This document shows positions 3,401 to 63,800 of a stretch of DNA of 64,000 nt, piece after piece. The notes beneath the pieces were generated by a model. The model saw only the letters and a program-made list of their open reading frames with translations. It was not told the DNA's origin and made no database searches. The translations under genes were made by a program, and so were the position numbers. Each line of letters starts with the position of its first letter. Position 1 is the first letter of the stretch. The DNA is from Gigantopelta aegis (Eukaryota > Mollusca > Gastropoda > Neomphalida > Peltospiridae), in the NCBI RefSeq assembly GCF_016097555.1, contig NC_054702.1:88176905-88240904 (forward strand), given 5' to 3'.

Positions 3401-6400
3401 AATTTTTCTTACCTGTTGCATGTTAGCATACTGTGTGCATTTTGATTGGAATGAATTATAAAAGCTACTGACAGAAATGGCACACTACCACATTAAAATA
3501 TTTGAAGAAATAAAAAATTTAAAATCTTGCCAGCATACATGATTTGCATGTTTTAATTTATATGTGTTTTGTCATACTTAACATAATTAAACACAATTAT
3601 TCATTAAGTTTGTGTATAATTCTATGTGTTACTCTATTATAATTGTAATAATATAGATAATCTTTGGGCTCTTTATATCATTTTTTAATCATATATTTCC
3701 GGTCATCTGCTTCAACAGTTCTTTATTTTGTATTTGTAGTGGACCCCTGTAATGTTGTACGTTCCCATCTGTTAATATCATTCGCTTTCATCTTGTATTT
3801 TAACGAGACTAATTTTATTTCTGATGGATTTTTTTGTTAGTTATGTTAATTAAGATTTTGTATCTACAACATCCCCTATTCAAACATTTAAATTAAGTTA
3901 CAATATCTGTATTTTATTTATTTTGCCTATTTGTTTTCTTTTTATTATTATTATTTTAATTTTTTTATTCCCCCATCTTTAATATTTTTTGTTTGTCACA
4001 ATTATAGTTTTCCCTACATTCAGTGGAGCTTTTGGTAAAACGTACAGTGTATTGGGTAATTATTGTACTGATAATCAGTCACATTAATTTAAATGTTAAT
4101 TTAATAATTTTATTACAGTCATGGTATACATACCCATAGGGTGGATCTTCAATTAGAGGGTTCTGTGATTTTGGGCAAATGCAGCATGTAAAAAACAATT
4201 TTGTGTTGACCTCTATGTATTGTAATTTTTGATCCCTCTTATATGATTAGAGTTTATTTCCCATTTGGGTGCAGTTTGAGAGAGAGAGAGAGTGTGTACC
4301 GTAGACCATAAAATGGAATAAATGTACATCATTCAGATAATGTTATGGAGGTCGATTGAACCCCAAATCCTCCCCCACCCCACCCTATGGACATGGTATG
4401 CTGTTTTTTTCTGGGTTTTTTGCTTTTTGTTTGTTTTTTTAATGTGAACTTGCAAAAAAGAAAAGAGAAAAAAGTACATGATATATAATTGAGCTCCACT
4501 GTCCGAGATTTCTCTTGTTGACTAACATTGTCATTTCCTTCAATAAGTCCAATTGCCTCAATTGCCTTGCTTAGGTCTGAAAGACGTAATCGAGATATTT
4601 CGGGGCCACTATCATTCAGCCATGTTGCCCACGTTGGACCTGACCAGGTCTTGCCCAGTGTACCTCCGCAGTAAGACGTTTTCCCTGTCGCTTGTAGTAC
4701 TTCCATTGTTTGCTTAGCATTGTGATCTGTATCCTCTTTCTCTCCTCTGATGTTGTTCATATGCTTTGGCTTTGGCCTAATCTTAATTCAAAGGCATGTT
4801 GTGACGGGTAAAACCAAAAAAAAAGAAAGAAAAAAAAAGAAGATTTTGTTATGTATTGAATGTATATACTATAAATGTTTAATAATAGTTTTACAGTATT
4901 TAACTACATGTAGATTTAGCAGCAGTGTGATATTTTAGCATTTTCACAAGTTTACTGTTTTCATTGATCCACATCCCCTAACATCTTCCCCCATAAAAAC
5001 AGAAGAGGACTGATATTAATTTTATTACTGTTTATGTATACTTAAAATAGTATCAAATCATTAGAACATTTTTTGCTATTGGAATAGCATTTAGAACTTA
5101 TTCAAAGGTATACATTTGATAAAGACCTGACTCCCATCGTTCTCCTTGTGAAAATGTTGAAGCATTTCTTATTAGTACTACATTGTGTATTAAAACAAAA
5201 TACTGTAAATGTATAAAATTATTTCTATATTGTATGTGTGGTGTTTGTACGTGTTTAAGTATTTGTGATCTGTATACCTGTATTATGTTCTGCATCATGA
5301 TCTTACTAACAAGACTTGTTTCAAGTGGATTTCAGTACCCATTGCTTCATCAGTAATAATTCACCATTACAGTCTTCACCAGAAGTGAGATTATTCTACT
5401 TTTACTTAAATTCCATTCCAATAATGACAGTTTTGCAAACAAGAACTATTGGTAGTAGCATTTAGTGTTAATTGTAACTCTGGAACATTTTCGGATTTGT
5501 CTTCTTTGTGATTTAAGGAACTGGTAATAGTAGCATTTAGTGTTAATAGTAACTGGAACATTTTCGGATTTGTCTTCTTTGTGATTTAAGGAACTGGTAA
5601 TAGTAGCATTTAGTGTTAATAGTAACTGGAACATTTTCAGATTTTTCTTCCGTGTGTGGTTACACCTACTACTTAAAAATCTAAACTTATCCACTTTAAT
5701 AATGGGAGTGGGTTTTTTCTTATTTATTTGTCAGTCTGATTATCCATAAGTTTTTGTTTTTATTTCTTTCATTCACATTCTTACATAAGTTACTTGAATA
5801 AGTTTGTTTTTACAATGGGTACTGAATGATCACTTAAACTGAGTTTGCATCATTATTAAAGTAGAATAGTTGAACATGTCTGTAGTTGAACATAATCTGT
5901 AACTAGCATGCCCTCCTATTTTTAATGTGCTAAAAAAAATTTGCTTTTTTATGTGTCCAACATTTAACCGACTGAACTAGTTAGTGAACCAGGTTAAGCA
6001 TGATACTATAGTCCTGTTCAATTGTTTCAACAAACCCAAACCCTGACAGGTTTTATATATAATTCATCATCTAAAATGCACGAAGTTGACTTATTTCCAT
6101 TTTACAAAAATCTGTTTCGCATGCAGGTTAGTTCGTTCTCCAATTGAACAGGACTATAATATGTATCTGCAGGTAAAAATGTATTCACTATTCAAAACAT
6201 CTGTATCGCCAGCAAAATCTAATCTTATGATATTTCAACTAGTTTATTAATAATATACTAAACAAAATTAGTTAAGGGCTAGTAGATGTTTTCGGAAATG
6301 TCCTTTAAAAATGGTATAAACCCCCCAGATTCTTCCGTTGTAAAAGTGTTGATGTTTGCTGACATTTCTTAAACTTGGTGATTTAAACAACAATTTAGAG

Positions 6401-29354: not shown

Positions 29355-32300
29355 TTATACAGCCATCATGTACAGTCTTCCCAGGTGTGACAGATGGTAA
29401 GATCCGATATACAAGACTCCGTTCTTTTCTTCGATCTCACTTGCATCACTCTGCCGGCCTGTGGGGTCGTGCAGACTCTGAATTATCTTGCCAGTTTTGT
29501 CAAGCTCCAGAATTAAGCCATACTTTGGAAGAAGTAACATTAGCATCTCTTGTGGAAGTACCTGCAAGCAAGATATACAGTGAGACCTCGATATTCCAGA
29601 CTTCAGTAGTCTGGAAACTCCACTTTATGGATACCCGAAATACAAAATGAACTCTACACTATATAAATGTGTTCGTTAATCTGGATATTCAGCTTCCAGA
29701 ACTGGATGAACATTATCCAAACAATTTGTTAAAAAATAAAAACAATTTGCTTCACTTAACCGGACATAATTTCTTTCAACAGATCATTTAATTAGAAACA
29801 AATGTATAACTTGCTTAGAGTTCGGTCACATTTTAAGCTGTTCAACAAATCGTCAAGTACTGGTTAAATTTTGTTAAAATATTCTGTAATATACTGATGG
29901 AAAGAAATAAGGGAACACATACCGTAAACAAAACTAGCAAACAATGACAGCAACCAGAACCTTCATCCATAGTATCAGGAGGATAACTGTGTTCCTTACA
30001 TTCAATTCACATTACAGACCGTCAATCCCATATGACATCTTTGTGCTTTTATACAGACATTACTATGCTAATAGTGAATTAAATTGGTCTACAATATCAC
30101 ATGTTCCCATATTTCTTTCCATCAGTATATCTGTGCTAAAAAGCAAATTTAAGAAGTAGCATGTTTAATGGTTTATTTTTGTAACATTTTATTTGACTAA
30201 AACCATATTTGGCAACAAATGTTAAAAAACAATTCACCAAAATGATATTGATATAGACCAGTGTCCGAGACTTTGCCTGAGGTACTGTATACGCAAATAT
30301 GTTCGCGAATAAAATATACCGCAAAAATCGCGAACATGTTGAAAGCACCGTGAATTTAATTACGCGCGAACTTATTTCCGATTTTGTATAATATTATTTA
30401 CCTTATAATATGTAGTCTTATCTCTACATGCCCAACCCATATCAGAATCAAGCAGTCAGAGGTCCGCAAGGTCACATGATTCTGTAAACCTGCCTGGTTA
30501 CGTGGATTTGATCGAAGTGACACACAGTTGCGCGTAAGTCTGTGGTTACGTAACCTCAGTTTTGTTTGTTTTCTTTGTAACCTTGAATGGAAGTTTTTGG
30601 ATACCACCAATAATTAAACGTTATTTCTTCTGATATTTGCGTTTTTCAATTCTCTCTATCGCATGTGCGTGTTCCACCAATAACATGTCTTATCAGACAT
30701 ACATACAACATTGACGTCTCGCTGACAGCATGTGCGTGAAATCGTCATTGAAAAGAGTTTGGCAAATGAAATGTGGGTAATTTTGATTTTATTATCGGGG
30801 GACAGTCGCGAAAATAATTCCTCGCGAAATGTAAAATGAAAGCCCGATCGTGAATTATTTTAGCCACGAAAATATTTACGTATATGGTATGATGAGTCAG
30901 TGAACTTGGGGTTTTCCCAGTTCCAAACAATGTGCTTTTAATATGTACTGTCCTGTTTATGAGAAAGTGCATGTAACAGGTCCCTCAGTTTTTTTCAGTA
31001 AGAGTAACCTATGTGGTTGAAGCAAGTTTCCTCTAGACCATGTGTTAAAAAAATGCTAAATTTTTTTATATTCCTTTACATTCCAAAATGCTAAATAATT
31101 TTTGGGTCCAAGATTAACACTGAAATAATTTAGTACAGCAAAATCCCTATGTGAAAACCGTTTAATGATTTTTTACAGCCTAAAATAATTAACATAGCAA
31201 TACTGTTCTGTCAGTTTAAAAAAACATAAACCTTTGCAAAGAAGGCTCTCCATAATGGTTTTGATGCCATAAAATCCACGCCATTAAACCGTGCTTTAAA
31301 TCTGACACCTGCCAGACCAATCCAGTACGTTCCACGGCTTGATCTGCGGATATTGTCCGGAAACCCAGGCAAGTTGTGTACAAACACGTCAAGTTCACCT
31401 TTCTTCTCTCCTTGTAAATAATACCTAAAATTAAGCCCATACTGGAATTTTAAAAAACCAGAGCTTGTAATATTTACAAAATTATTTTTCACTTTTATTC
31501 GATCTAGTTGAAATTGGATTTAAAATCCACTATTTCCTATGATGATTACTCCACATCATCAGCCTCCTACCACCCAACCACCTACCCCAAAAATGTATTA
31601 TGGAATTGTTACATTCATAAACTAATACATGTGTATATTGTTAGTTGAAACTGTATTTGACAGAGGGATCACAATAGTTGGCGATTCGGTGAAGAAGTTG
31701 CTCTATGCCACTTAAATTTGCCTTGTTTAAACTCGAGGGTGAAATCCACTTTGCCATCTTGGAATTAAAGTCATTACATCATCAGTCATTGTGTCCATAT
31801 ATTGATTCTTTTTAAATGGTCATTCTTGCCCCACTTCTCCCTGAATCTCTTCACTTCTCCCTAAATTATCTGGAGGGATAGGTGATTTCTCTCTGTTTTG
31901 TCAGTCCAGCTTGAACCCAGAGAGTAAATAATAAAAATAATAAATTTATTTGATTTGGAAAACAAACATGCGCTAGGGCAAAACCAAAATCAAAATCACT
32001 GGTCTGCAGAAGTATTTGACAGACAGATGATTAGTCACATACTACTTGACCATGACCAAGGATATTTACATAGTGCAGTTCATTAACTAAATATTCATAA
32101 CAGATTAACAGCCCAAAGGTTGCGTGTACTAGGACTATCTCCCACTCACCAGAACTGCAGAAAAATAAGACATTTTTTTAACAATGATACCCAACAACTA
32201 ATAACTGGCATATCTAGCAGGTGCAATAACTTTCTCATTTTTAATCAATTGAAGACAAATATTCCAGTGCTATCCCCACTCAGTCTATTACTAAAAAGCT

Positions 32301-35300
32301 CCACTATAAACTTTCATAAATATACTAAAATGAAAAGTACTATGGTAAAGACTGATAATAAAAATGCTTCTGGAAACAAGCAATAATAAACATTAACTAA
32401 AAACTTTAACTTTTCAGACCTCATGATCCTGGCTGTGGTTGTTTCTGAGATGAGCAGAACATCTTCTTTAATTGACAGCTGTACACCATTTGGAAACATC
32501 AGCCCACCAACAAGTTGTGTCATATGCTTTGTTTGTGGATTATAAGAAAGTAATCTGAAACAAATTTATGAAGGTTCATTAATAAAGAAGAAATAATTAA
32601 TTATGCCTCTTAACAAAATTTAGGAAGGATTATGTAAAGTCAGTACAATATTTTTTATATTTTTTTGACACAGAACACATAAAAAAATCCAATTTGACAA
32701 TGTTTTTAGGACTTCTATATTCTGTAAACTGGAATAAAAATACACTGATATAAATTTTGCACTGTTTGCACCTAACCTCGAGTTAAAAAATGTATATAGA
32801 AGCTTTAATTTCATATATGCACTGCAGATAAAAACAGACATTTACAAAATTTACACATGGTGAATATGCGGGGAGAAACAATCCATGTCAAAATGATAAT
32901 CCAGTTTATGTCTATTTCAATCAGAATGTTTTTACGCACTCTATCCCAATTTCCACCCAAACAAAAGAACAGAGAAGAAATAAGATGAAATTAACTATTT
33001 TTTTGTGCTCAGGTATACCTAACTAAAACGGCTCTTTCAAATTAGCAGCAAATGATCTTTTATATACACATACTCTGAATTTTGTTCTATGATCTGTTTT
33101 ATATTAGAGTGTCAGTAGTTAAAGTATGGAATATACTTTAATATAAAACAGTCCACACACACACACACACATGCACTCCCCCACCCACAGAGACCAACTA
33201 CAAGCATGCACACACCCACACACCTCCCTTGAGAGTCCGACACATCTGTTATAGTTTACCTGCCCGATGATTCTGCTTCTAGTAAAACATATCTGTTGTG
33301 ACGTCTGTCCCATTTTGTGCTGGAGTCAGTGACATAAATAGTGCCGTCCTTAGCAATGTCAAGGTCATTCAAGAATTTGGGAATTTTTCCATTTATTGGT
33401 TCAGAAGATGAATAAAGTTGATGCACATCTCCTGAAAACTCAAAATAATACATAATAATAATGATCATTAAAATAATGTTTATATTATAGAACCTCAAAA
33501 ATAATTCAAACCAAACTACTTTTTATAGTATGTCCCCTGGGCAGTGGTTTGCGAAACAAATGTGGAATAGTATTATGGAATGTGCTGCAATAAAACTAAG
33601 TCATAAAACATAATTATGAATATTCTGGTCCCTAGCATAAGTCTTTACAGTGGATCAGTCTTATAGACTATACTGATTTTGACTGTGCATTGTTTTTGAT
33701 GATATATTCCTTTTTAACCCAAGACAGACTGACAAAAAAAAACAATCACCCAGTGCACTTTGCATGATACTAAGATCACACAAAGTGCTTGCCTTTTAAT
33801 TTTATACATAAAGAAAAATGAGATCAAAAACACAAATTGGCAAATCGTCTTCATAAAGCAACAGGGCTCGAACTTAACGACGGCACTGACAGCAATATAA
33901 ATTGCCATAGGTAGAGAGCACTGCCGATGGCACTTTTGTGCCGATGCTAAATCTCCTCAACAATGGCAAAATATATACACCTGGTGTACATAATCTGCCA
34001 ATATTTAACATTTTCAGATTTGAAATATGTCTACATCATGTACATACAGCAAAATAACCTTTTAGTCATATTTATTTTCTGCAAATGTCACATTAAAAAA
34101 CAATTGTTATAGGCAAACTCAAAGTTGGCATCGGTGGGCTGTTTCACCCATGGCAATTCTTTTTAAAATTGCTGTAGAAGACTAATTCTTAAGTTCGAGC
34201 CCCGGAGCAAAGTATTTCAGCTAGCAAAGTATTTGACGAGACTTGACCGAGTACAACCATTTACTATTGACAATAATCATCCATCAATATTTCAGAATTT
34301 ATTTGTTTGAGTACAGACCTCGCAAGGAAAGTCTTGAACATCATCTTACCTGTAGCTACGTTGACTTTAAAAAGACCCAAGTAAGCATCCACTACAACTA
34401 AATAGCCGTCATTGTCAAGGCGCATTCCAAGTGGTCGTCCACAGGTAGGCTCATTCTCAAAACCACCTGAAAATTATAGATCATGCTTTCACGACACAAC
34501 CAACATTAATATCCATTACACATGACTGAACATACATATAAAACATCCTGATATAAATGAGCATGTACCAGGCCTGCAGAATCCAGGGGGTGGGGGATAG
34601 AGGCTCTTCCACTTACATCGAAAAGGTATAGTTTTTTCCCCCATCTTTGTATAAAGAATGAATGAATGAAATGTTTTGTTTAACGATGCACTTAACACAT
34701 TTTATTTACGGTTATATGGTGTCAGACATATGGTTAAGGACCACACAGACATAGAGAGAGGAAACCCGCTGTCGCCACTTCATGGGCTACTCTTGTCAAT
34801 TATCAGCAAGGTATCTTTTATATGCACCATCCTATAGACAGGATAGTACATATCACAGCCTTTGTTACTCCAGTTGTGGAGCACTGGCTGGAACAAGAAA
34901 TAGCCCAATGGACCCACCGATGGGGATCAATCCTAACTGACCATGCATCAAGTGAACACTTTGCCACTGGGCTACGTCCCGCCCCTCGATCATTATATAA
35001 ATAAAGGTAAAAATCTGGCTTGTGCCCCCCCCCCCCCCCCCAAATTAGAGATTAAGCCCACACACTAGAGCTGGTGACCCCAACATCAGGTATCATTCAA
35101 ATGGGCAACGCGCTACGCCATTCATACAGTGTGTAAAGCAGTTTTGCGTTTCATACTAGCATGAAACTCAAAATGTTCACGTTCAATTCTTAAATGCAGT
35201 TCACATTTGTAAGACTACAATTTTGATTGTATTTTTCTTACCAGGTGTAATTTACAAATAATGAGGTTTTAAAATATACAGTAGAATCTCGTTGGGTTGA

Positions 35301-38300
35301 ACTCGGAAGGGTCGAATACACCGCAACGCTTGAACCAAAAATGAAGTCCCGAGTTACACTTACACGTTGTTGACTAAATGGTTAGGTTGAACTACCCGAT
35401 GGGTCGAACACTTTCTCGAGCACCGACAGGGTTCAAGCCAACAGGATTCAACTATATTTTATATCCATAACAAATCTTATTAACAAGGATGAGCTACACT
35501 ATTTACTCAGGGCCATACCTAGGTTGAAATAATTGGGGGTGCAGTGAGGCCAATAAAATAAATTGGAGCATATTAATACTGGATTTTCTCCTGTTAGAAA
35601 AAAATAATTAACTTTTAGAGTGAAAAAGGTTTTTTTTTTATTTGTTTGTAGGTCAAGACATGCCACTCTGCCCTTCATGCAAGATAAGGTTCTGTTACTA
35701 TTATGTACTCAGTATCTTCAATAAAAAAGGGCATGGAATGTAACCCAGCACTCTCTTGACGTATGGTTGGTCTGGGATTGATCCCCATTGGTGGGCCCAT
35801 TGGACTATTTCTCATTCCTGCCAGTGCACCACGACTTGTATATCAAAGGCTGTGGGATGTGATATCCTGTCTGTGGGATGGTGCATATAAAAGATCCCTT
35901 GTTACCAATTAAAAAATGTAGCAAGTTTCCTCTCTAAAACTGTATGTCAAAATTACCCAATATCTGACATCCAATAGCCGATAATTAATAAATCAATGTG
36001 CTCTAGTGGTGTTGTTAAACAAAAACAATCAATCAATAAGAAGTTCCAAGCAGAAAAATTTTCTACCTTACCACAAGGATCTTGACCTAGTTTTGCCAAA
36101 ACTCTTGCCGTTCCTTTGTAGATAACAAGTATCTTTCCATCAAGGGTACCTGTATATATATGCTCTGGAAAGAGAAACAGAACATTTAATAGTTTTTAGA
36201 TTTGCAGAAACGGTTAAAAAGAAACTAATGTGAACAAAAAAAGGTACATTATAGGCCTAAACTGACAGTTAACACAGGTTGCCTTTATTACATCACTCTA
36301 AACTAAATGTACATAAATTGACACTGTCAAACTATATCAAACAAAAATATCTTCATTCTACTTAGCTATTTATGAGAATGGTCAGGCCAGTTTGAAGGAA
36401 GGAAATGTTTTATTTAACGATGCACTCAACACATTTGATTTATGGTTATATGGCATCGGACATATGGTTAAGGAAAACACAGATATTGAGAGAGGAAACC
36501 CGCTGTCGCCACTTCATGGGCTACTCTTTTTCTATTAGCAGCAAGGTATCTTTTATATGCACAATCCCACAGACAGGATAACACATACCACAGCCTTTGA
36601 TATACCAGTCGTGGTGCACTGGCTGGAGCGAGAAATAGCCCAATAGCCCACCGACGGGGATCGATCACAGACCGACCGCGAATCAAGCGAACGCTTTACT
36701 ACTGGGCTACGTCCCGCCCCTGAAGTTTGAAGCAACTTGAATGAGTAAAATTATTATTTTATTTAGCTATACTTGTTCATAAACTACTTTAACTGTTGTA
36801 TATTTTGATAGCAAAAAAATATTAAGAATACCAAAAACAATTCTCACAAATATAAAAAAAATATAAATAATAATAATTTTAAAAAACCTGACTTAAATTT
36901 ATAGCACTCTTCAAGGTATTAAAACACTATTAGTAATAATAATATAATTATATATAGTGAAACCCTTCTAAGCATGACACCCACGGGAGCAAGTAAAAAA
37001 AATCCAGTTTTGAGGGTTCTCTTCTGTACTGATAATTAAAAAGGGGCCATGAAAACCACCTGGCTTTGAGTGAATTCCGGTTTACTAAGGGTCCAGTTTT
37101 GATGGATTCCACTGTATATATAATGTCTGTGATGTATGTATGTGTTATTTTGCATGGGATTCAGTTAGAAAGAAGTACCGGCTCCCACCTAGAGCAGGTT
37201 TTAATGACTCAATGGGTAGATGTAAGGCCACTACATCCTCTTCTCTCTCACTAACAATTAACAACTAACCCATTGTCCTGGAAAGACATTCTAGATAGCT
37301 GAGGTGTGTGTGCCCAGGACAGTATGCTTGAACCTTAATTGGATATAAGCACAGAAATAAGTTGAAATGAAATGTAGGGGGTGGGGGTGGGGTGGGGAGG
37401 AAGGCTAGTATGAAAACTTTCTCAGCAACCAACCTCCATCAATGACAATTGACTCGGGACCAATAATTTCATTCTCATGAAGTCTTTCCGTCTTTGACAA
37501 TTTTTCATTACGTACCAGAGGGCCAGTCAGATCAGGTGGATCTGGAAAACTAACAGCTCAAAAAAATAATATTCACAAGTTCTAGCTTCAAGTTTAACAA
37601 GGACCATACCTAGCATGGGTACAAGGAGGACAGTTGCACCCAGAGAAAAATATTAAGCAGTGTTTCTGCCAGAAAGAAATTTTTGGGTATGACGCTATGG
37701 AATTGAATTCAACCACAGTCAACAAGGGGTATGGGGGGCTTCCCACAGAAAGAAAATGAGTTAAGTTTAGCGTTAGGGTTAAAAAAATCATACAGTAATG
37801 ATAAGAGCAATTAATTTTGTCAAAAAGTTAACGTAAAAAAAAAAAAAAAATCAGCAAAAATATTTGGGTATGGCGCCATACCCATTTTACCCTCTGGCAG
37901 AAACAACTTCAACTTCTATTTGTTTTTACTGCAACAACAGCTTAAATCATATTATATTTCAAAGTACAACAGTTACTGTGCTACAATGTATAACACATAT
38001 TGGAAGGAAAATTATTTAAATTATAATGACAACAAGAAAGCAATCTAAAAACATGGAAAATGGTAAACATCTGTCATGACTAAAGAAACAAGGACTGGGA
38101 TGTGGAGGAAGTTGAAAGATAGAAGGAGCTGTCAGATCACAACTAAATATGATGGAATTCAAATGAGAGAAAGGTCAATAGGTAGTGGGATAAAAATAGT
38201 TTTTAAAAAGATAAGGAAAAAAGAAAAGAAAAGAGGAAGATATTTACTAAAATTAAGTTCTGTTACAGAAAAGATACCTGAAAGCGACGGGTTCGATTGG

Positions 38301-39877
38301 CGATGGAATTAATATCAGAACAACAATCACAAGAATCACAGCAACTGCAAAGGCAATGGCAAAGGCACCCCAGCTAAAGAAAATACATAAAATCGAGATT
38401 AATAAAGGCACCCCAGCTAAAGAAAATACATAAAATCGAGATTAATAAAGGCACCCCAGCTAAAGAAAATACATAAAATCGAGATTAATAAAGGCACCCC
38501 AGCTAAAGAAAATACATAAAATCAAGATTAATAAAGGCACCCCAGCTAAAGAAAATATATAAAATACAGATTAACAAAGACACCCCAGCTGAAGAAAATA
38601 TATAAAATCAGGGGTAGAATTAAAAAAAATTCAGGGCAAGGCCATTTTGACTTTGGGTTTGAGGAAATGTTTGGGGCACCAAGGCCAGTGGGCAGGGCAC
38701 CAAGGGCAACATTTCTTTCAAGGGTAGGGCACCAAGGCCACTTTCTGTAAAGTTTTCACTGATGCGAGTGAGAGATGAGGTTCCATGCGCAGAACAGTCT
38801 TTATAGAGCGACTGCGCAGTTACTTCTCGGCGACCACGTGGTTCTCGGATCTGTGGCTTGTAAACAATAACAATATGGCTGCGCCCATCGAAATAGCGTG
38901 TCTGAGAGTCGGCAATAATTTCTTTGGATTTCTGTTTTTATGGACGAATACACGGCAAGTGACAAATGCTGCAAAGTTCAATTTAGTTGGTACCAGGCAT
39001 GAGAAGGGCACTAGGGCATACAAGGAAAGCAACCACGGCTACTTATGGCCGTGGACACAGTCCCAATTTATCAGGGCACCGCGTCCAGTAACAAGGGCAC
39101 CTACGGCAATAGCCGTAGTGCCGTGGGCCAAAATCGATCCCTGTAAAATACAGATTAACAAAGGCACCCCAGCTGAAAAAAATATATAAAATAGAGATTA
39201 ATAAAGGCACCCCAGCTAAAGAAAACATATAAAATAGAGATTAATAAAGGCACCCCAGCTAAAGAAAATATATAAAACAGAGATTTAAAAAAAAAAAACA
39301 GCTAAAGAAAATATATAAAATATGGATTAATAAAGACAACCCAGCTAAAGTCCAATCTTGCTTTCTTTGCTTGTTTTAACTTTATTTTTACAAACATTTC
39401 TGTGAGTATGACATACGTTTGTTTACTTTGCTCATGCAAGAGTCAAATTCATCAAAAATATTCAAATGTACGTACTGATGCGCACAAACAACACCACTGA
39501 AACAGGAACCTCACCGAAACAGGGCAACAAACGATATTATTATCTAGCCAAATAACTAGTTAACACTTTTAATTAATCGTTTAATTTACCATATGAAAAC
39601 TATTTTCATGCAAGTTTAAAGGCATAGTGTCTCTTTATATTTTGCGCTACATGGATGGGATGATACTGATAACAAAATATGAGTATTGTCACAAAAATGT
39701 TAACATTATCAACAATAGCAAATGTTTTGGTATAAGATAACCATAATCAATGTTTTCTAAACATCAAAACAAGTACCCTTGTGCAGCCACTGTTTCTCTT
39801 TTTACATCATCATTACTTGATTTTATTTCTTCACGTGACAGATTGTCAAGTTTTCTCTGTCTTAAATTAGTTGTCAT
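29355..39877 (-). CDS. APMAP: Adipocyte plasma membrane-associated protein homologue (strictosidine-synthase-like), complete
   Basis: Nine exons in transcript order: 39877-39777, 38373-38278, 37549-37434, 36164-36072, 34466-34350, 33431-33260, 32554-32420, 31424-31232 and 29561-29355. Phases agree throughout and give 409 codons plus stop, close to the 416 of human APMAP. Residues 1-34 form a polar cytosolic tail. Exon 2 encodes one hydrophobic segment (AFAIAFAVAVILVIVVLILI), so a type II single-pass membrane protein is expected. The rest is a six-bladed beta-propeller of the strictosidine synthase/arylesterase family, with IGPESI, CGRPLGMR, FLNDLDI, YVTDSSTKWDRR, FPNGVQLS, NLPGFPDNIR and the C-terminal ELD...SLHDP...LYIGS. 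Mammalian APMAP shows weak arylesterase activity; its substrate is not settled. Start codon: first ATG of the open exon-1 frame. Exon 3 has two competing acceptors, and only the upstream one keeps the frame. It faces BTBD9 head to head. Confidence 0.95.
29577..29800 (+). mobile_element. Pogo/Tc1-like nonautonomous element, right end unclear
   Basis: Left end CAGTGAGACCTCGATATTCC after TA has the look of the pogo-like elements at 35279, 36955 and 40994. The right end was not found with confidence. It begins about 15 bp upstream (in transcript sense) of the APMAP exon 9 acceptor. Confidence 0.45.
29891..30128. mobile_element. Tc1/mariner-like MITE, 238 bp
   Basis: Near-perfect inverted ends ATACTGATGGAAAGAAATA with TA at both flanks. 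Noncoding. Lies in APMAP intron 8. Confidence 0.85.
30281..30887. mobile_element. Nonautonomous inverted-repeat element, about 600 bp
   Basis: Left end TACTGTATACGCAAATATGT and right end (complement) TACCATATACGTAAATATTT are imperfect inverted repeats followed by CGCGAA-rich subterminal sequence. Probably TA-targeting. APMAP intron 8. Confidence 0.7.
30940..31040 (+). mobile_element. Diverged SINE core fragment
   Basis: GTACTGTCCTGTTTATGAGA, then GTGCATGTAACAGGTCCCTC and GCAAGTTTCCTCT, resembles the shared SINE core. Both ends are lost. Confidence 0.5.
31788..32096 (-). repeat. Inverted repeat pair, right arm (APMAP intron 7)
   Basis: Inverted copy of 27670-27960, inside the intron between APMAP exons 7 and 8. 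No terminal repeats were identified, so the element type is unknown. Confidence 0.88.
33862..34204. mobile_element. hAT-like nonautonomous element, 343 bp
   Basis: Left CAGGGCTCGAACTTAA and right (complement) CGGGGCTCGAACTTAA are inverted repeats. Subterminal TGCCGATG/GGCATCGG also pair. In APMAP intron 5. A related but diverged stretch without clear ends lies near 45186-45372. Confidence 0.8.
34657..34988 (-). mobile_element. SINE, tail type A
   Basis: Reads on the minus strand from a tRNA-like head (GGGGCGGGACGTAGCCCAGT, later GGATTGATCCCC) through the core to TCGTTAAACAAAACATTTCA. In APMAP intron 4. Target duplication not clear. Confidence 0.88.
35025..35041 (+). repeat. Poly-C tract
   Basis: About 17 C in APMAP intron 4. 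Confidence 0.85.
35279..35454. mobile_element. Pogo-like MITE, 176 bp, uninterrupted
   Basis: Left CAGTAGAATCTCGTTGGG and right (complement) TAGTTGAATCCTGTTGGC form inverted ends beside TA. A second copy at 40994-41489 carries a SINE. In APMAP intron 4. Confidence 0.85.
35764..36035 (+). mobile_element. SINE, tail type B
   Basis: Starts at box B (GGGATTGATCCCCATTGGTG), continues through CAGTGCACCACGACTTG and the core, and ends in AATGTGCTCTAGTGGTGTTG plus TTAAACAAAAAC. It stops about 35 bp before the APMAP exon 4 boundary. Confidence 0.88.
36398..36723 (-). mobile_element. SINE, tail type A, near full length
   Basis: Reads on the minus strand from GGGGCGGGACGTAGCCCAGT with box B CGATCCCCGTC, through the core, to TCGTTAAATAAAACATTTCC. 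Target duplication AGTTTGAAG at 36389-36397 and 36724-36732. In APMAP intron 3. Confidence 0.92.
36955..37114. mobile_element. Pogo/Tc1-like MITE, about 160 bp
   Basis: Left TAGTGAAACCCTTCTAAGC and right (complement) CAGTGGAATCCATCAAAAC are imperfect inverted ends inside TA-rich flanks. APMAP intron 3. Confidence 0.65.
37160..37360 (+). mobile_element. SINE, third head type, 5'-truncated
   Basis: CCGGCTCCCACCTAGAGCAG, ACTCAATGGGTAGATGTAAG and TGTGTGCCCAGGACAG match the complement of 57235-57497. It ends in TTGGATATAAGCACAGAAAT. Confidence 0.8.
38374..39351. repeat. 43-bp tandem array copying the APMAP exon 2 acceptor, split by an insertion
   Basis: CCCCAGCTAAAG blocks recur at 38411, 38454, 38497, 38540 and 38583, exactly 43 bp apart and in register with the exon 2 boundary at 38368-38379. 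The array resumes at 39167, 39210 and 39253 and decays by 39351. In APMAP sense each unit reads TATTTTCTTTAG|CTGGGGTGCCTTT, the same 3' splice site and first 13 exon bases as exon 2. Lies in APMAP intron 1. Confidence 0.95.
38609..39143. mobile_element. hAT-like element inserted in the 43-bp array, 535 bp
   Basis: Ends CAGGGGTAGAATT and (complement) CAGGGATCGATTTT; flanks share TAAAAT. The interior has GGCACCAAGG-type repeats and is richer in G+C than the flanks, with no credible gene. It interrupts a repeat unit, so it arrived after the array formed. Confidence 0.75.
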
Positions 39878-41832: not shown

Positions 41833-62483
<20,651 letters not shown>

Positions 62484-62490
62484 GTAATAG

Positions 62491-63800
62491 CGTTATACAC
62501 AAATCAGCACTTGTTTTATAATGTAACACATCACTATACACCAATCAACACTTTAATGTAACACGGCACTATACACCAATCAACACTTGTTTTATAATGT
62601 AACATGGCACTATACACCAATCAACACTTGTTTTATAATGTAACACATCACTATACACCAATCAACACTTGTTTTATAATGTAACACAGCACTATACACC
62701 AATCAACACTTGTTTTATAATGTAACACGGCACTACACTCCAATCAACACTTGTTTTATAATGTAACATGGCACTATACACCAATCAACACTTGTTTTAT
62801 AACGTAACACATCACTATACACCAATCAACACTTGTTTTATAATGTAACATGGCACTATACATTAATCAACACTTGTTTTATAATGTAACACATCAGTGA
62901 GCACTATACACCAATCAACACTTGTTTTATAATGTAACACAGCACTATACACCCATGAACACTTGTTTTATAATTTAACACAGCACTATACACCAATCAA
63001 CACTTGTTTTATAATGTAATACAGCACTATATACCAATCAACACTTGTTTTATAATGTTATACAGCACTATGCACCAATCAACACTTGTTTTATAATGTA
63101 ACATGGCACTATACACCAACACTTGTTTTATAATGTAACATGGCACTATACATTAATCAACACTTGTTTTATAATGTAACATCAGTGAGTGCTGTACACC
63201 AATCAACACTTGTTTTATAATGTAACATGGCACTATACACCAATCAACACTTGTTTTATAATGTAACACAGCACTACACACCAATCAACACTTGTTTTAT
63301 AATGTAACACAACACTATACACCAATCAACACTTGTTTTATAATGTAATACAGCACTATACACCAATCAACACTTGTTTTATAATGTAATACAGCACTAT
63401 GCACCAATCAACACTTGTTTTATAATTGTATACAGCACTATGCACCAATCAACACTTGTTTTATAATGTAACACAGCACTATACACCAATCAATACTTGT
63501 TTTATAATGTAACACAGCACTATACACCAATCAACACTTGTTTTATAATGTTATATAGCACTATGCACCAATCAACACTTGTTTTATAATGTAACACAGC
63601 ACTATACACCAAGCAATATTTGTATAATGTTATACAGCACTATGCACCAATCAACACTTGTTTTATAATGTAACACAGCACTATGCACCAATCAATACTT
63701 GTTTTATAATGTAACACAGCACTATACACCAATCAATACTTGTTTTATAATGTAACAGCACTATGCACCAATCAACACTTGTTTTATAATGTAACAGCAG
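62491..63800. repeat. Satellite, about 41-bp unit, roughly 31 copies
   Basis: The unit contains CCAATCAACACTTGTTTTAT, AATGTAACACAGCACTATA. Copies vary at a few sites (CAGCAC, CGGCAC, CATCAC, TGGCAC). The first copy starts about eight bases after the donor of BTBD9 exon 10 and the array ends near 63800. Copy number is estimated from length. Confidence 0.96.

Follow-up and report, generated by a model that had tools for sequence, protein, structure and literature searches.

We analyzed a window of 64,000 bp (C4:88176905-88240904, G+C content 34.8%), this being the whole stretch of DNA under study, taken from an assembly with a total of 1,149,253,464 bp. A gene on the minus strand at positions 29355 to 39877 is modeled as nine coding exons with an open frame of 409 codons. 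The predicted protein contains the Str_synth, SGL and SSL_N domains (strictosidine-synthase-like), consistent with the name APMAP, which we take to be that of the gene. Exon 2 (38278 to 38373, minus strand) comprises 96 nt and is followed directly by a gtatct donor. An earlier note on this DNA had proposed that this exon codes for a membrane segment, and the translation read by eye does contain the transmembrane segment WGAFAIAFAVAVILVIVVLILI. The peptide encoded by exon 2 has one match genome-wide, and there is therefore a single exon 2 locus. The real acceptor AG of this exon is placed at 38374 to 38375 (minus strand), since of eleven candidate starts 38373 is the sole one that leaves the frame open.

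The coding part of exon 1 (MTTNLRQRKL...) is predicted to lie at 39777 to 39877 on the minus strand, with a gtactt donor in phase 2. A search for strong donors gave no candidate for exon 1, and the accepted exon was picked by eye among 13 weaker candidates, nine of which had better-scoring donors than its own score of 3.8. The choice was made from its location between the array described below and the divergent BTBD9 gene, together with its basic N-terminus. Given this predicted exon, intron 1 has a length of 1,403 nt, of which approximately 977 nt are taken up by the array and its insert.

The 3′ splice site of exon 2 is contained within a tandem array with a period of 43 bp (38361 to 39350, minus strand), made up of ten full units plus 19 bp and split by a transposon. 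Read in the transcript sense the unit is ATTAATCTCGATTTTATGTATTTTCTTTAG followed by CTGGGGTGCCTTT, corresponding to 30 intron bases and 13 exon bases. There are eleven AGCTG cores, with a step of exactly 43 bp between them save for a single step of 584 bp, and on removal of the insert the array measures 449 bp, i.e. 10 × 43 + 19. The earlier note had described a 43 bp unit in exact register from the exon boundary that generates eight or more decoy acceptors; the register is as described, and the number of decoys is ten. One end of the array is exon base +13 and the other is CTTTAG. The latter, the left end, is out of unit phase with the right end, so that the original duplication can no longer be traced. 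Counted from the exon, units one to three are identical, the fourth is 98% identical, and the other six have identities of 74 to 95% to the nearest. One unit has been partly replaced by poly-T. The sequence TTAAT, which resembles a branch point, is kept near position −27 in 8 of the 11 acceptor copies.

The ten decoy acceptors lie between 38416 and 39344 on the minus strand, with exon-side starts at 38416, 38459, 38502, 38545, 38588, 39172, 39215, 39258, 39301 and 39344, and the AG is intact in every one. The decoys at 38416 and 38459 are the same as the real acceptor throughout the stretch −30 to +13, and that at 38502 differs by one base. Any scoring scheme limited to this interval must therefore give a tie between the first two decoys and the real site. 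Beyond +13 the real exon reads on with GCC, and the decoys with ATT, GTT or TTA.

We translated from each decoy in the frame of exon 2. All ten run into an in-frame stop codon, nine of them within 20 codons, and in eight of those nine the stop is supplied by the acceptor TAG of the following unit. From the remaining decoy, at 39172, reading continues for 42 codons, into the transposon. Production of the normal APMAP protein therefore requires the exon-proximal acceptor, and this argument, which needs just the exon 2 frame, is independent of the choice of exon 1. The exon-proximal acceptor is thus probably the one used in APMAP, judged from the reading frames. An AT-rich intron yields stops in any case, so the stops are a consequence of decoy use and not evidence of selection. 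Where a decoy was used, it is possible that repeat sequence would be added to the mRNA.

The step of 584 bp within the array contains a 535 bp non-autonomous DNA transposon, which is absent from the earlier note, and a 6 bp target-site duplication. The transposon (38609 to 39143, plus strand) has the ends CAGGGGTAGAATT and AAATCGATCCCTG, with terminal inverted repeats that are present but imperfect by eye, and both its flanks carry the target duplication TAAAAT (38603 to 38608 and 39144 to 39149). It has at least 43 further matches genome-wide (40 of 108 candidates scored), and all fall within positions 231 to 782 of the query, corresponding to the transposon plus a few edge bases. The window copy is 97.0 to 97.9% identical to seven retrieved copies. 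Target duplications of 6 bp were read in the window copy and in L002, L003 and L004, the three retrieved copies that matched on the plus strand; L005 to L008 are matches on the other strand. Since the transposon sits inside the array with its target duplication, the array must be older than the insertion.

The unit of the APMAP array is private to this locus. A search with the 43-mer allowing up to three mismatches gave eight matches in 1,149,253,464 bases, all inside the array, and the reversed 43-mer gave none genome-wide, so that a chance origin is excluded. With array DNA alone (38376 to 38598) as the query two places were found in the genome, both in the APMAP array. The earlier note had allowed that the array might prove equally common elsewhere, the exon match then being the insertion of a known satellite, but its unit matches nothing else in this genome. 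The note's proposal of growth from the splice site gains support, as the array is built of the splice site and its unit is found nowhere else. A dispersed satellite was considered as a separate candidate and is rejected, there being no related arrays of the APMAP unit at other loci.

A second splice-site array is present in the same window. A gene on the plus strand beginning at about 41830 has BTB and BACK domains, and is BTBD9-like. One of its exons (SWQTIRFERRPVALIRIVGIHNTANE; 62405 to 62483, plus strand) ends NTANE/gtaata, with the donor GT at 62484, and an array of approximately 32 units of approximately 41 bp begins at this 5′ splice site (62484 to 63800, plus strand). All but two of the units start with GT(A/T)A following AAT or AAC, and the first of them is the real 5′ splice site. 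The unit has 24 matches genome-wide, all within the BTBD9 array. Because it starts at the donor with little or no exon sequence, this array spans the boundary only in a loose sense. Both of the longest arrays in the window start at a junction. A shorter array at 5453 to 5650 (73 bp × 2.7) contains a CTG/GTAATA-like sequence, with no recognized exon adjoining it.

We sampled exon ends elsewhere in the genome by Pfam search, using 68 of 93 p450 matches and 10 of 21 ABC transporter matches. The ten best p450 matches, which are long and mostly single-exon, were left out, as were two adjoining another match in the same frame, near-duplicate members of clusters, small contigs, and matches that were rich in stops or prokaryote-like in length. 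Some of the sampled regions were fixed by rank and place ahead of any inspection of their sequence. Arrays were identified using Tandem Repeats Finder (period ≥20, score ≥80), and an end counted as positive when the edge of an array fell within the matched exon. An array runs into the exon at 7 of 156 p450 and ABC ends, i.e. 4.5% with a 95% interval of 1.8 to 9.0%, where the ends are partly interdependent through paralogues and some matches stop at the limit of a domain rather than of an exon. By family, the counts are 4/136 for p450 and 3/20 for ABC. None of ten kinesin exon ends carries an array (5 of 124 matches sampled), giving 7 of 166 sampled ends over the three families. The nearest kinesin array, at L119, begins 23 nt past the end of the match, which may not coincide with the end of the exon. 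The earlier note had called growth from a splice site unusual; that seemingly holds for genomes in general, but less so for this one, given the second array in the window and the seven p450 and ABC ends.

Arrays occur at 3′ boundaries in APMAP, L048, L069 and L107, and at 5′ boundaries in L048, L063, L105 and L108, with that of BTBD9 extending from the donor. L048, L063 and L069 are p450 loci, and L105, L107 and L108 are ABC loci. A single p450 exon in L048 has arrays at both ends. Its acceptor array (L048:1144-1545) has five units of 80 bp including the real site, and its donor array (L048:1927-3026) has 15 copies, 11 of them contiguous, at a spacing of 48 or 56 bp. Counting by eye with the real site included, there are about 20 donor units in L063, seven acceptors in L069, seven acceptors of two unit forms in L107, about eleven donor units in L108, some of which are degraded, and two donors in L105. 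At an eighth end, in L080 (577 to 844), a 34 bp array abuts the acceptor of a p450 exon, and its units are without AG. Among decoys detected by pattern, use would lead to a stop in 4/4 acceptors and 11/11 donors of L048, 14/15 in L063, 6/6 in L069, 4/6 in L107, 7/7 in L108, 27/29 in BTBD9 and 1/1 in L105. Two of the six decoys in the ABC locus L107 are open over the stretch tested, so that the use of a decoy would not have to be destructive in every case.

The units of several arrays diverge with a polarity. In the acceptor arrays of APMAP and L048 the units next to the exon are the most alike, and L069 shows a mild form of the same trend. For BTBD9 and L108, whose arrays are at donors, the exon-adjacent unit is the most diverged, or nearly so; the L108 units compared were partly cut at fixed spacing. 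No clear gradient was found in L063 or in the donor array of L048. Where a gradient is clear, it is the more uniform end that lies downstream in transcription, which for so few arrays is a lead only. As a separate candidate, hairpins driving the repeat were rejected. Folding of single-stranded DNA from four stretches of the APMAP and BTBD9 arrays gave z-scores of 0.5 to 1.2, and the folds are no more stable than those of shuffled sequences.

The APMAP array is a mirage, i.e. a minisatellite of an intron/exon boundary of the kind described in amphioxus, and it has the testable features that define the class. The unit spans the boundary, the AG is kept in ten of ten decoys, the unit is private to the locus, and arrays at both 5′ and 3′ boundaries are found within the one genome. 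With a probability of roughly 0.78 we consider that this mirage arose by tandem duplication followed by expansion, that splicing occurs at the exon-proximal copy, and that the array is near-neutral. Tandem duplication of a 43 bp segment lying over the acceptor end of APMAP intron 1 would have been the first step, with slippage or unequal exchange later adding copies, in a genome where intronic minisatellites are abundant and some of them start at splice junctions. Growth was probably tolerated on the intron side only, because exactly one copy must remain joined to the body of the exon. With the local signals tied, the spliceosome would be expected to take the exon-proximal copy, as exon definition should favor the shortest exon; the likely cues are how far downstream the next 5′ splice site lies and enhancers in the exon past +13. 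Occasional use of a decoy would give an early-stop transcript that is degraded, leaving the array close to neutral. Most likely, then, the array has no function and splicing stays at the exon-proximal acceptor.

Several other explanations bear on the APMAP array itself. The decoys might be regulatory, such that leaky acceptor use generates early-stop APMAP transcripts and tunes expression through nonsense-mediated decay, with the copy number acting as a dial. The identity of the decoys at 38416 and 38459 with the real site, and the AG and in-frame stop shared by all ten, are what such a role would employ. Yet retention of the AG rests on few changes in few diverged units, the stops are expected anyway in AT-rich sequence, and in the available excerpts of the amphioxus studies mirages reportedly neither disturb splicing nor make aberrant mRNA (PMC3087553, PMC3902484). 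We therefore regard regulation as improbable. An artefact of assembly, whereby misassembled long reads have multiplied a single splice site, is suggested by our reliance on one assembly and by the aberrant assembly of one amphioxus mirage in a draft genome, as noted in an excerpt of PMC3087553. Sequence differences from the nearest unit are present, however, in seven of the ten full units, similar arrays occur at other loci, and the divergence of the units together with an inserted transposon that has a clean 6 bp duplication indicates that the array is neither fresh nor a ghost of assembly. An artefact is accordingly unlikely, to the point where we would give it very little weight, although the exact count of identical units could be off. 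It is scarcely credible that a dispersed satellite or a transposon-borne repeat was inserted beside exon 2 and supplied its 5′ end. A transposon does sit in the array, but its matches elsewhere (40 of 108 candidates scored) stay within positions 231 to 782 of the query, no copy of the unit was found away from the array, and the 13 exon bases are themselves coding, for part of the membrane segment.

A different alternative concerns the cause of the class, and is compatible with the anatomy of the APMAP array. Ordinary intronic minisatellites may be so dense that they cover junctions by chance, without any seeding by splice sites. Arrays cover about 9 to 11% of bases at 100 to 300 nt from p450 and ABC exon ends and 5% at the boundary, and the ten kinesin ends are free of them, all of which agrees with chance overlap. 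Against this, array edges are concentrated just inside exons, where coding constraint should deplete them. Seven edges lie between −80 and 0 in the exon, compared with 14 in nine 40 nt bins from 40 to 400 at a score of 80, or 10 at a score of 120. The excess is approximately two-fold at the lower score (Poisson p = 0.039) and three-fold at the higher (p = 0.008), for bins that were chosen after the data had been seen and a small sample that includes paralogues. The start of both of the window's longest arrays at a junction also stands against chance. These data are suggestive, but not proof, that junctions are special for the edges of arrays. Since the excess is only two- to three-fold and the kinesin ends are negative, part of the class could be chance overlap of dense intronic minisatellites with junctions, and we rate the chance explanation as a real contender at a little under even odds. 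The opposite proposal would be that junctions seed minisatellites in this lineage, recurrently and independently of amphioxus, at about one exon end in twenty, perhaps as a result of co-transcriptional DNA damage or R-loops at the junctions, and with growth along the direction of transcription, in line with the polarity of unit divergence. We find this doubtful.

Arrays of this kind have some general significance. Identical acceptors or donors that differ only in position offer a clean test of splice-site choice when the local signal is tied, setting exon definition against first-come kinetics. They also provide many loci at which to ask how minisatellites start at junctions, and whether they feed the growth or gain of introns. 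That mirages occur in a molluscan genome, where several percent of the sampled exon ends carry them, takes the phenomenon beyond the cephalochordates. For gene annotation they call for caution, as an exon with such an array has several borders that score equally.

The nature of the host was examined using a mitochondrial-like fragment that we observed in the chromosome-scale contig C6 at approximately 42.727 to 42.732 Mb (L023:5359-9401 into L024). On one strand it carries cox3-K-A-R-N-I-nad3-S-nad2-cox1 plus three further tRNA genes, with frames that are open under code 5; cox1 was identified by Pfam, the tRNAs by ARAGORN, and cox3, nad3 and nad2 by eye. The fragment is either a nuclear copy or a scaffolding error. 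The excerpted text of PMC11488289 gives this block as the plesiomorphic molluscan arrangement, and that of PMC6881320 reports the KARNI cluster in strombid gastropods. The mitochondrial gene order thus provides good support for the host being a mollusc and not a cephalochordate. Such a host falls outside the reported range of mirages, which is not part of their definition.

Mirages were reportedly first described at the Adh locus in Nucleic Acids Research in 2002, according to papers citing that work. In the excerpts of PMC3087553 and PMC3902484 the amphioxus examples are Adh3, the globins BflGb6 and BflGb9, TnC and PGBD5, all being tandem repeats over an intron/exon boundary. They lie at 3′ or 5′ boundaries, many of the copies have AG or GT, and the units are 10 to 72 bp in Adh3 and 150 to 160 bp in the globins. 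Variation in length, from haplotype to haplotype or somatic, also belongs to the picture of the class. Within the open-access literature, searched mostly at the level of title and abstract, we found no mirages outside amphioxus; the mirage is a known kind of structure for which the molluscan lineage is apparently new. PMC2812944 concerns tandem repeats and gene structure in humans. Register with a splice site is not described in the accessible portions of PMC12783039, PMC2206037, PMC4039745, PMC3862624, PMC6905558 or PMC7931591. The last but one of these concerns a minisatellite in intron 3 of an abalone TSSK1-like gene, with a 27 bp unit that varies between individuals. It resembles the APMAP array in having units of tens of base pairs within a molluscan intron, but unlike APMAP no splice-site register is described for it in the text available. 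The Rogers model, in which introns are gained when AG/GT proto-splice sites are tandemly duplicated (as cited in the excerpt of PMC3087553), also multiplies splice signals, but APMAP shows no new intron or exon, only a longer intron. The closest likeness is to the amphioxus mirages, with which the arrays studied here share tandem units that span the boundary at 3′ and 5′ ends and keep their splice dinucleotides. They differ from them in their molluscan host, in the ten decoys and the transposon of the APMAP array, and in the presence of arrays at 7 of 166 sampled exon ends.
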